From the NCBI GenBank assembly GCA_030832185.1, contig JAURJQ010000008.1, positions 1 to 64,000 of the forward strand: a stretch of 64,000 nucleotides of DNA, written 5' to 3'. The stretch comes from Chitinophagales bacterium. Its GTDB lineage: Bacteria > Bacteroidota > Bacteroidia > Chitinophagales > JADJOU01. The notes below the pieces were generated by a model. It saw only the letters and a program-made list of their open reading frames with translations. It was not told the DNA's origin and ran no database searches. Shown one piece after another: positions 4,552-8,290 of the stretch; the stretch's first letter is position 1; every line of letters starts with the position of its first letter. Position numbers and translations under genes: made by a program.

Positions 4552-6339
4552 ATGAGAAAATTTGTAGTAACCATAGCCGGTGACTCTGGAGACGGTATTC
4601 AGCTTCTGGGCAATGCCTTTTCAGACAATGTAGCTCTAAAAAATTTAGATCTCAATACCCTCCCTGATTTTCCCGCTGAGATTCGTGCACCCGCAGGTAC
4701 TATCCATGGTGTATCTGGCTTTCAGATTCAGTATGGAGGTGAGAAAATTAATACGGCAGGCAATAAATCCGATGTATTTATCGCCTTCAACGCAGCCGCT
4801 TTGAAGAAATATTTCAAGACCTTAAAACCAACCGGAGTTTTAATTTATGATTCTGCAGGATTTGATGCTAAAAACTGCAAACTGGCAGGATTTGATTTGG
4901 CTGAATTAGACACTATCCCCAATAAGAAATTGGAAGTGGCCTTCTCATCTATGACTAAAGAAGCGCTCTCCGGCTATGGAGTAGAAGATAAAGCCAAGGA
5001 TAAAAATAAAAACATTTTCGCTTTAGGTTTCCTAGCATTTGCCTTAGATACTTCGATAGAAAAAACGAAGACCATACTTAAAAACAAATTTAAGGGGCCT
5101 CAATTAGAAATGATGGAAATCGTTCTAAAAAAAGGGTATCACTATGCAGAGACTATTGAGTTTGCTCTAGAAAAACTAGATGAGAAAGCTCAATTTAAAA
5201 AAGGCTATTATCGAAATATCACTGGAAATTCTGCTATAGCTTTGGCCATACTCTCGGCTCCAAAAATTTTCGGCAGAAATGTATTTTTCGGTGGCTACCC
5301 TATTACTCCTGCATCGGAGATTCTGCATGAGCTGGCCAAGCAAAATTTAAAAGAGGTCATAGTAAAACAAGCAGAAGACGAAATAGCTGCGGCGACCATG
5401 GCACTTGGTGCCGCTTATGCTGGTCATATCGGTATAACGGCATCCGCAGGGCCTGGTATCGATCTAAAACAAGAAGCCATCGGTCTGGCACACATGGCTG
5501 AGCTTCCTCTGCTCATCATAGATGTGCAACGCGCCGGACCTAGCACCGGACTGCCCACTAAGGTAGAGCAGTCAGATCTGAGCCTAGTACTAAACGGAAG
5601 ACATGGAGACTGCCCTGTTCCTGTAGTCGCTATTCGCAATCCATCGTCAGCATTTGAGACTACTATTCAGGCTATTGAGATGATGATAAAATTTCAAACA
5701 CCTATCTATTTACTTAGCGATGCGATGATAGCAAATGGAAGTGAATTGTGGGAGATACCCAAGATAGAGCCTAAGGCGCCTCATCAATATTCAGATATGA
5801 GCCCCTACAATAGATCTGATGACACTATGGCAAGACCCTGGACTGAACTAAGACAGGAGGGCGTAAATTACATAGCTGGCGGACTAGAAAAAGATTATCT
5901 AACAGGTGCTATTTCCTATGAGGGAATTAATCATCAAAAAATGGTTGAAACTAGATTTCAAAAAATCATGAACATGTCAGAGCATATTCCTCTTTGTGTA
6001 CTTGAAAAAAATAGTTCTTCCAAAGGAACATTAGTTCTGAGCTGGGGTTCGACCTATGGAGCGGTGAAGGAAGCCTTTCATGCAATAAATAAAGACGTAA
6101 ACGATATTGCTCATTTACATTTAGATTGGATTTTCCCATTCCCTAAAAATTTCCAATCCATCATAAATCACTATGATCGAATTATAGTGCCTGAACTCAA
6201 TCATGGTCAATTTGCAGATTATCTAGCCGCTCATTATAAAAAATCTATATTTAAGATAAATAAAATCCAAGGGACTCCTTTCTTTGAAGATGAATTAATC
6301 AAATCAATCATTGATATACTAAAGCTTGAGACTCTTTAA
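4552..6339 (+). CDS. 2-oxoacid:acceptor oxidoreductase, alpha subunit (gamma-alpha fusion), no adjacent beta
   Basis: A 595-residue subunit of the KorA type. Residues 1-180 are the gamma domain (AGDSGDGIQLLG motif, coenzyme A side). Residues about 230-430 are the pyrimidine-binding alpha domain, with GGYPITPAS, QAEDEIAA, SAGPGIDLKQE and QRAGPSTGLPT. The remainder is the C-terminal domain II. Such enzymes oxidatively decarboxylate 2-oxoacids with CoA and reduce ferredoxin, but they need a thiamine-diphosphate-binding beta subunit. None lies next to this gene; the only beta subunit in the window is at 17.1-18.2 kb, beside its own alpha. The last 14 bases overlap the following M28 gene. The substrate is not readable from the sequence. 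Confidence 0.88.
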   Translation: MRKFVVTIAGDSGDGIQLLGNAFSDNVALKNLDLNTLPDFPAEIRAPAGTIHGVSGFQIQYGGEKINTAGNKSDVFIAFNAAALKKYFKTLKPTGVLIYDSAGFDAKNCKLAGFDLAELDTIPNKKLEVAFSSMTKEALSGYGVEDKAKDKNKNIFALGFLAFALDTSIEKTKTILKNKFKGPQLEMMEIVLKKGYHYAETIEFALEKLDEKAQFKKGYYRNITGNSAIALAILSAPKIFGRNVFFGGYPITPASEILHELAKQNLKEVIVKQAEDEIAAATMALGAAYAGHIGITASAGPGIDLKQEAIGLAHMAELPLLIIDVQRAGPSTGLPTKVEQSDLSLVLNGRHGDCPVPVVAIRNPSSAFETTIQAIEMMIKFQTPIYLLSDAMIANGSELWEIPKIEPKAPHQYSDMSPYNRSDDTMARPWTELRQEGVNYIAGGLEKDYLTGAISYEGINHQKMVETRFQKIMNMSEHIPLCVLEKNSSSKGTLVLSWGSTYGAVKEAFHAINKDVNDIAHLHLDWIFPFPKNFQSIINHYDRIIVPELNHGQFADYLAAHYKKSIFKINKIQGTPFFEDELIKSIIDILKLETL

Positions 6340-7306
6340 ATCTGTTTATAAAATTAATAAGCCAATATCATTAGCTTTACTTTTAATGATATGCCTTCTA
6401 TGTAGGGCACAAAATGGGGTAGATTTTAAAGACATACTCGAAATTCAAAACATTAATCTCACCAAAAGCATTATCTCTACCCTTACCTGTCCAGAATTCG
6501 AGGGAAGAGATATAGAGCGTGAATCTATATCTAGGAGTATAGTCTATATCGAAAGCCTCTTGCGTGCTTACAATATCAAACCTTACTTCGAATCGTATCG
6601 TATACCATACAAAATAAACAATAAACGCATAGGCTACAATATAGTAGCGCTCTATCGAGGAAATCTTCGAAAAAAATCTGCCATTCTTATCACCGCAAAT
6701 TATGACAACCTAGGGTTAACTAAAAATCGAACCACAGCAGATAGCTTTTTAAAAGGCGCGAATGATAATGCTACTGGTGTATCCGCAGTGCTTCAACTGG
6801 CCTTATTTTTCAACAAAATAAAGCCTAGAGAAAATATCATATTTGCATTTACATCGGGCAAACATAAAAATATGATGGGGGCGGGTTTCCTGGCTGATAC
6901 ATTTACTAAATTTGACTATCTAGATATAAAATACGTAATCAATCTAGATATGCTGGGAAGACCATTTGAAACTGGTAGAAATAATTTACTATGCATACAG
7001 GATACGGCCAATACTATCAGCTCCCGATTAAATAGCTATATAAATCCTGAATTCATAACCATAGCCCAAGGAGAGGCATTTACTGAATCTGCAGAATGTA
7101 CACCATTTTACAATATTCTCAAAGTACCCAGTGTAACTTTGACTTCTTTCAATTTTGAAAATGATAAATATTATCTAACCGAGAAGGATGATATGGACAA
7201 CCTATATGTAGATTACTTGCATCGCACTACTGCTAGATTAACTCTTGCCTTGTATTCTTTGATTACAGATGCGCGAATAGTAAAGCTTGGACAGGAAGAG
7301 GACTAA
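6326..7306 (+). CDS. M28-family peptidase homologue, metal site degenerate
   Basis: A 326-residue exported protein of the M28 aminopeptidase fold, probably starting at a TTG that overlaps the KorA-like gene; no ATG gives a full signal peptide. The signal peptide ends at CRA before Gln29. Fold motifs are recognisable, but metal and catalytic positions are changed. The first His ligand in AHYD is Asn125 (TANYDNLG). The EE pair (catalytic base plus ligand) is Gly178-Lys179 in FTSGKHK. The final His of the YHTP motif is Tyr283. Asp147 (GANDN) and Asp208 (NLDMLG) are kept. I therefore expect no zinc peptidase activity; a binding or scaffold role is possible. Compare the intact M28 protein at 57.2 kb. 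Confidence 0.8.
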   Translation: MRLFKSVYKINKPISLALLLMICLLCRAQNGVDFKDILEIQNINLTKSIISTLTCPEFEGRDIERESISRSIVYIESLLRAYNIKPYFESYRIPYKINNKRIGYNIVALYRGNLRKKSAILITANYDNLGLTKNRTTADSFLKGANDNATGVSAVLQLALFFNKIKPRENIIFAFTSGKHKNMMGAGFLADTFTKFDYLDIKYVINLDMLGRPFETGRNNLLCIQDTANTISSRLNSYINPEFITIAQGEAFTESAECTPFYNILKVPSVTLTSFNFENDKYYLTEKDDMDNLYVDYLHRTTARLTLALYSLITDARIVKLGQEED

Positions 7307-7441
7307 TCATTGTATTGCAATCTAAATCTAGTGCATTACTAGTTGTTTTAAAACGATAATTCTAATAGATTCAAACGATTTAACAATAGATTCTGCTATT
7401 GCTAAAATAGAATGTAAAAAGTCCATTGGAAAATAAAAAAG

Positions 7442-7516
7442 TGGGCAATAATGGATTCGAACCATCGACCCCTACGTTGTCGACGTAGTGCTCTGAACCA
7501 GCTGAGCTAATTGCCC
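7442..7516 (-). tRNA. tRNA-Val (GAC)
   Basis: The minus strand folds into a full cloverleaf of 75 nt including discriminator A. The acceptor is GGGCAAT with ATTGCCC, the D stem GCTC/GAGC, the anticodon stem CTACG/CGTAG with loop TCGACAA, the variable loop GGGTC, and the T arm GATGG-TTCGAAT-CCATT. The anticodon by position is GAC (Val), and discriminator A fits Val. Position 33 is C, where U is almost universal. No CCA is encoded. A T-run follows directly (7435-7440 read on the minus strand), and a promoter with both elements lies upstream at 7533-7565, so the gene is probably expressed. Confidence 0.9.
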
Positions 7517-7532: not shown

Positions 7533-7565
7533 CAAATATAGGAAATTATTGTATTTAATGGTCAA
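7533..7565 (-). promoter_or_regulatory. Promoter of the tRNA-Val gene
   Basis: Minus-strand TTG (7563-7565), 22-base spacer, TATATTTG (7533-7540), ending 16 bases before the tRNA 5' end. It overlaps the 3' end of the PAP2 gene. Confidence 0.55.
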
Positions 7566-8290
7566 AAACCTTCATGGATTTTCGGAATCAGATAGCCCAA
7601 GCCAGCCCCTATAGCATATCCTATGAAAATATCCGTAGGGAAATGTTTTCCCGCTTTCCAGCGAAGATAACCCTGCACTGCGGGCAGAATAGCAGCACTA
7701 GACCATATTATCGGTGCTAAGTCCTTATTTTGACCATTAGCCGCAAACATAGATGCTGTGAAAAATGCCGAACTAGCAGTGAAACTGGTATGCCCAGAGA
7801 AAAATGACATGCGGGCATCTGCTTTTAGTTTTTCAGAAAGGGGGGCATTTTCATTATATACAAATGGTCTAGTCCGCCTCACCAAGGATTTGACCAATAA
7901 GGTTGTCCCAATATTAATGAGATAAGTCTGAGCGAGCATAGTTCCTTTCTCACCAAATTGATTTCGTTGATATGGTTCTATCATAAGTATGGTGGGCAAG
8001 AATAAAGAGCCAATTAATAGCTTATCACTGGCATACCTGGCCTTGGTAGAATAATTATATGTAGCAGTTTTATCCAATCCATCCAAATCACTTCTATCCA
8101 GTTTCTCAATATCCTCTACCTTTAAAATAGAGATGTTTCTACTCTGAATATACCCGAGAGCATTGAAGCTGATCCCTGCTGAAAATAAAGCAACTTCTCT
8201 AGCAGGGCTAAGAGAATAGGTGACTCCCTGTCCTAGCATGTTTTGAAGCATACATAAGCTTATTACATGAATAATCCAACTTCGTATCAT
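7562..8290 (-). CDS. PAP2-family phosphatase
   Basis: A 242-residue membrane phosphatase of the type 2 phosphatidic acid phosphatase superfamily. The three active-site motifs are in order: KSLVRRTRP (KxxxxxxRP), FFSGHTSF (the PSGH motif with Phe-Ser for Pro-Ser) and RWKAGKHFPTD (RxxxxxHxxxD). An N-terminal signal ends near LGQ, and several membrane helices surround the motifs. Likely substrates are undecaprenyl diphosphate or other lipid phosphates in the periplasm; the family does not tell which. It lies upstream of and on the same strand as the tRNA-Val gene. I saw no -7 element before it. Confidence 0.88.
   Translation of the reverse strand: MIRSWIIHVISLCMLQNMLGQGVTYSLSPAREVALFSAGISFNALGYIQSRNISILKVEDIEKLDRSDLDGLDKTATYNYSTKARYASDKLLIGSLFLPTILMIEPYQRNQFGEKGTMLAQTYLINIGTTLLVKSLVRRTRPFVYNENAPLSEKLKADARMSFFSGHTSFTASSAFFTASMFAANGQNKDLAPIIWSSAAILPAVQGYLRWKAGKHFPTDIFIGYAIGAGLGYLIPKIHEGF

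Follow-up and report, generated by a model that had tools for sequence, protein, structure and literature searches.

Cytidine at position 33 of a Chitinophagales tRNA-Val(GAC) and its recurrence in the same bacterial isoacceptor

The tRNA-Val(GAC) gene and its setting

The first 64,000 nucleotides of contig JAURJQ010000008.1, from a Chitinophagales bacterium (assembly GCA_030832185.1), are referred to here as the window; they carry on the minus strand, at 7516-7442, a tRNA-Val(GAC) gene with C in place of U at position 33. ARAGORN predicted tRNA-Val(gac) at 7441-7516 (minus strand), and the Rfam family RF00005 matched 7516-7442 with 65.1 bits (cut-off 29), level with the 64.3 bits of the ordinary tRNA-Val(TAC) of the same genome (C10:15018-15092). 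The gene comprises positions 1-73, with A73 and no encoded CCA. Its anticodon arm, positions 27-43 (7472-7488, minus strand), reads CTACG TCGACAA CGTAG; all pairs of the stem are formed, and the loop is U32 C33 G34 A35 C36 A37 A38, with C33 at 7482, the anticodon GAC (34-36) at 7479-7481, which reads GUU and GUC by the standard code, and A38, the base that accompanies C33 in most relatives, at 7477. The hallmarks of a tRNA are all found, namely a cloverleaf with paired stems, a 7-nucleotide anticodon loop and the anticodon GAC. A73, A35 and C36, which are valine identity elements in E. coli, are present as read from the sequence, and the gene ends in GCCCA. U33 is regarded as near-invariant since it makes the U-turn, and it is on this feature that the gene departs from other tRNAs, having C33 instead.

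An initial annotation of this DNA had described a tRNA-Val(GAC) with C33, perfectly paired stems and a promoter. C33 and the intact stems hold, and a promoter-like stretch, TATATTTGCA, lies ahead of the gene both here and in three congeners (G001, G002, and G003). The element TATATTTG (7533-7540, minus strand), conserved in the same congeners, resembles the Bacteroidota -7 element TAnnTTTG. A T-rich stretch, the annotation's "T-run," lies 3' of the gene. The palindrome GTCGAC to which the annotation also drew attention is present but appears incidental as a feature, since it results from G31 preceding TCGAC and many C33 arms carry C31 and hence lack it (42/46 planctomycete arms and 8/21 arms of the order). 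The gene is flanked by a Peptidase_M28 gene (6326-7306, plus strand) on one side and a PAP2 gene (7562-8290, minus strand) on the other.

The genome (2.22 Mb in 31 contigs, 98.95% complete) gave 35 tRNA-family matches, 34 of which were confirmed as tRNAs by ARAGORN, including one tRNA-Val(GAC) and one tRNA-Val(TAC). T33 is found in 33 of these 34; the exception is tRNA-Val(GAC). A second, normal tRNA-Val(GAC) with U33, which the annotation had named as evidence that would count against it, was not found among the 35 matches of this 98.95% complete genome. The valine box is also served by a U34 isoacceptor, tRNA-Val(TAC) (loop TTTACAC), which is the closest relative of tRNA-Val(GAC) in the genome (80% over 70 nucleotides), so that anticodon and body are concordant. 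The 35th match (L011, C6 about 65-140) is a damaged tandem copy of tRNA-Ala(GGC) at a contig end, in which a palindrome, TCCCGCACGTGCGGGA, substitutes for the T-loop; an intact copy adjoins it.

The annotation had further proposed a comparison with the tRNA-Val(GAC) of relatives, and C33 proved to be common to three congeners. The genes of G001 and G002 are identical to that of the window (100% over 78 nucleotides), that of G003 is 95% identical over 76 nucleotides, all three share the same anticodon arm, and the window neighborhood aligns with their loci in synteny. In a fourth congener, G004 (62% complete), neither a C33 nor a U33 tRNA-Val(GAC) pattern was matched; G005, from the other sampled genus of the family, has the U33 loop TTGACAG. 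The gene is thus intact, conserved in the genus, and the sole tRNA-Val(GAC) seen in its genome. A locus of G001 that is syntenic with the window (L038, C61 6845-9922) holds a tRNA-Val(GAC) whose D-loop contains two hairpin-forming inserts and whose T-loop contains one, its stems and C33 anticodon loop being otherwise intact; downstream lie an intact C33 copy, which has a TATATTTGCA of its own, and, after it, a tandem series of several 3' halves that carry the T-loop hairpin. These inserts recall the palindromic elements inserted in Rickettsia genes.

Recurrence, specificity, and linkage with base 38

One C33 and one U33 pattern for tRNA-Val(GAC) were run on 396 genomes of the order; C33 was found in 21, spread over 11/164 genera and 7/22 families, and U33 in 179. 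A relaxed pattern, applied to 60 near-complete genomes of the order that matched neither strict pattern, gave matches in six: an eighth family contributed four further genes with C33, a single gene had U33, and the sixth match, L207, was rejected by ARAGORN. The remaining 54 gave no match; many genomes of the order seemingly have no tRNA-Val(GAC) at all. Among 99 genomes of Planctomycetota, C33 was found in 44 and U33 in 33. No genome of the order (21 against 179) or of Planctomycetota (44 against 33) held both forms. A scan of named genomes, which yields no frequency, returned at least 117 stretches with C33, and 117/117 fetched loci are tRNA-Val(gac) with C33 according to ARAGORN. Their titles include Planctomycetota, Bacteroidota, Actinomycetota, Bacillota, Campylobacterales, Chlamydiae, and Aquificales, as well as Alpha- and Deltaproteobacteria, Spirochaetes, Verrucomicrobiae, Elusimicrobia, Nitrospiraceae, and others; many of the records are metagenome bins, and the taxa are given as titled. 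The occurrence of C33 in this isoacceptor is repeated across many phyla, where it replaces the U33 form and is accompanied by a different base 38. Because none of the 117 fetched loci has U33, that base, a near-universal feature of tRNAs, is not by itself defining for a functional tRNA-Val(GAC).

When C33 was sought irrespective of anticodon in 247 Bacteroidota genomes, seven matches were obtained, 7/7 with GAC, and a search for any non-U33 base with any anticodon in 25 genomes from many phyla, picked for C33, gave one match per genome, all tRNA-Val(GAC). In samples of four phyla, the latter search returned 73 matches, all C33 and none with a purine (A33 or G33); 63 have the anticodon GAC, five GGT, three GGC, one TAC, and one TGT, all belonging to four-codon boxes. 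The survey pattern catches 14/34 tRNAs of the window genome (12 anticodons), and the specificity is bounded to tRNAs so shaped. All 46 matches in Planctomycetota (44/99 genomes) have GAC. The 25 matches in Actinomycetota (22/100 genomes) comprise 15 GAC, the five GGT, the three GGC, the TAC, and the TGT; the last (in G759) has a 27-43 mismatch. Bacillota (1/101 genomes) and Pseudomonadota (1/100) gave one match each, in the center genome that had been picked for C33; with such center genomes excluded, the counts are 43/98 for Planctomycetota, 21/99 for Actinomycetota, 0/100 for Bacillota, and 0/99 for Pseudomonadota. The C33 tRNAs of Actinomycetota outside tRNA-Val(GAC) include tRNA-Thr(GGT) with the loop TCGGTAA and tRNA-Ala(GGC) with the loop TCGGCAG; they occur in G771, G799, G834, G845, G786, G777, and G792, G786 holding one C33 tRNA-Val(TAC). 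Across 184 loci (20 anticodons including GAC), 67 distinct non-GAC tRNA sequences all have T33, in a chosen sample made up mostly of neighbors of tRNA-Val(GAC) genes.

Base 38 varies with base 33. In the C33 loops of the 117 fetched named-genome loci, A38 occurs 72 times, C38 36 times, U38 nine times, and G38 never; the C33 loops of the order have A38 in 20/21 cases and C38 in one, and those of Planctomycetota (n = 46) have A38 in 34, C38 in 10, and U38 in two. The U33 loops show a different profile: G38 in 108, U38 in 41, and A38 in one of the 150 listed for the order, and U38 in 30, C38 in four, and A38 in one of 35 in Planctomycetota. Counted by distinct arm, which lessens shared ancestry without removing it, A38 is found in 13/20 C33 arms and 2/40 U33 arms (Fisher P = 1.2e-6, without correction for ancestry; U33 arms of the order drawn from the 150 listed). 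A direct comparison is offered by the genus g83, in which G239 (C33/A38) and G150, G331, and G373 (U33/G38) share a 55-nucleotide match that differs only at 33 and 38, in loci whose synteny extends over about 2.3-2.5 kb, at 69-72% identity. In g26, the differences between G096 (C33/A38) and G064 (U33/A38) lie at positions 33 and 25, and only the 3' flank aligns.

Avoidance of a triloop, in which pairing of U33 with A37 and of U32 with A38 closes the loop to three bases, was considered as a cause of the C33/A38 linkage and rejected. According to ViennaRNA, 33-37 pairing has a probability of 0.67 in UUGACAA and 0.00 in UCGACAA; since the value is also 0.56-0.57 in UUGACAG, which is the most frequent U33 loop of the order, the linkage is not accounted for by this model. 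The tRNA-Gly(GCC) of the window genome, with the loop TTGCCAA, likewise speaks against it.

Interpretation of C33

C33 in tRNA-Val(GAC) looks like a real, tolerated alternative rather than an error. A base-calling error is very unlikely, because C33 is found in three independently sequenced congeners and in 117/117 fetched loci of named genomes, and both an assembly error and local decay are unlikely, because the three congeners carry the same C33. As a broader class of explanation, a pseudogene, sequencing error, or assembly artifact deserves almost no weight. Exceptions of this sort frequently do turn out that way, and among annotated eukaryotic tRNAs those in which conserved positions are broken are for the most part pseudogenes (PMC9023262), but here the score is full, the stems are paired, the gene is conserved and syntenic in three congeners, C33 recurs elsewhere, and the genome has no other tRNA-Val(GAC). 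A tRNA pseudogene in particular is ruled out by the 65.1-bit match, the paired stems, and conservation in the genus, and a mistranslating tRNA of the ProX or Candida kind by the agreement of a valine body with a valine anticodon. C33 should not, then, be taken as the mark of a pseudogene.

On the comparative evidence, we think it probable, with some reserve, that the gene encodes a functional tRNA-Val(GAC) for elongation, and that C33 stably replaces U33 in it and is tolerated together with a suitable base 38. The tRNA would read GUU and GUC with a turn formed by C33. Such a turn may be usable because the contact of the residue-33 ribose 2'-OH with N7 of the purine A35 would be independent of base 33; the turn is held partly by the residue-33 2'-OH and N7 of purine 35 (PMC5372741), and A35, the purine needed for this contact, is present in the window tRNA. 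Any loss of efficiency might be tolerated since tRNA-Val(GAC) would serve as an auxiliary tRNA with G34: in principle, the U34 isoacceptor can also read GUU and GUC in this four-codon valine box. Across 319 bacteria, the G34 members of four-codon boxes have been placed among the auxiliary tRNAs (PMC4041420), and plastid trnV-GAC is nonessential, its knockouts having no visible phenotype in standard light (PMC3499367). The marks of such a tRNA are seen here: the U34 tRNA-Val(TAC) is present, and tRNA-Val(GAC) is seemingly absent from many relatives. Selection nevertheless appears to be still acting, because only C and never a purine was found, the stems are paired, and base 38 changes jointly with base 33.

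Several observations weigh against tolerance of this kind. Introduction of U33C into yeast tRNA-Gln gave a phenotype that its authors read as poor decoding (PMC3664417). GUU and GUC make up 366/1003 valine codons (36.5%) in 39 long open reading frames of the window, so tRNA-Val(GAC) would not be idle. If C33 were merely tolerated, it might be equally frequent in other auxiliary G34 tRNAs, and with the survey pattern that catches 14/34 tRNAs it was seen in tRNA-Thr(GGT) and tRNA-Ala(GGC) in Actinomycetota only. The linkage of bases 33 and 38, moreover, is without a confirmed physical cause.

A rival reading is adaptive tuning: the combination of C33 with A38 or C38 would adjust how strongly tRNA-Val(GAC) binds the ribosome, much as affinity is set by 32-38 pairs in other tRNAs, and the 33/38 pair would be selected, not merely tolerated. 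The two bases change jointly, C33 is long-lived and predominant in Planctomycetota (of 99 genomes, 44 have C33 and 33 have U33), and a changed 32:38 pair lets tRNA-Ala read GUC, according to a review (PMC11415595). The partner of U33, however, depends on the clade, being mostly G38 in the order (108 of the 150 listed) and U38 in Planctomycetota (30/35), so that no single affinity target is evident; we regard tuning as unlikely. Restoration of the turn after transcription, by the C-to-U edit of C33 to U33 that the annotation had raised or by a modification, would account for conservation despite the loss of U33. Editing would require a site-specific editor in many phyla acting on one isoacceptor and would leave the joint change of base 38 unexplained; we know of no C-to-U tRNA editing at position 33 in bacteria and consider this explanation highly improbable. 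There is an equally slim prospect that C33 acts as an anti-determinant against a wrong synthetase, such as isoleucyl-tRNA synthetase, in the manner of G33 of Candida tRNA-Ser(CAG), which lowers leucylation (PMC1991585). The anticodons of tRNA-Val(GAC) and tRNA-Ile(GAU) differ at position 36, and the isoleucine tRNA of the genome (loop CTGATAA) shares A37 A38 with the C33 valine loop; most U33 tRNA-Val(GAC), however, do without C33.

The repeated appearance of C33 in intact single-copy genes, with its linked base 38, amounts to a natural experiment on the need for U33, and the congener set of G239 versus G150, G331, and G373 supplies arms that differ at 33 and 38 only. More tentatively, the turn with C33 and an adjusted base 38 may be a second, repeatedly evolved bacterial solution, used almost only in tRNA-Val(GAC) and at times in tRNA-Thr(GGU) and tRNA-Ala(GGC). 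If so, the constraint imposed by the U-turn would vary with the anticodon and the codon box, and C33/N38 would give a natural way to influence how G34 tRNAs decode.

Comparison with known systems

No account of C33 in bacterial tRNA-Val(GAC) was found in open-licence papers, a partial collection. Like the auxiliary G34 tRNAs (PMC4041420) and plastid trnV-GAC (PMC3499367), tRNA-Val(GAC) appears as a dispensable partner of tRNA-Val(UAC); C33 goes unmentioned in the passages on either of them. C33 itself occurs in metazoan initiator tRNA-Met (PMC9023262), where it is likewise stably fixed in one functional tRNA; the initiator enters the P site, in contrast to the window tRNA, which is an elongator with the anticodon GAC. 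Another case is tRNA-Cys(GCA) of Sulfolobales (PMC7668247), an elongator that also combines G34 with C33, the feature being limited to a clade. That tRNA is archaeal, serves a two-codon box, and has G27-U43, whereas the C33 tRNA-Val(GAC) is bacterial, serves a four-codon box, and is found in many phyla. Natural exceptions at position 33 of elongator tRNAs are further known from Candida tRNA-Ser(CAG), with G33 (PMC1991585), and bacterial tRNA-ProX, with A33 (PMC11415595). Both have a purine and are tied to codon reassignment or mistranslation; the tRNA described here has a pyrimidine at position 33, together with an ordinary valine anticodon and body.
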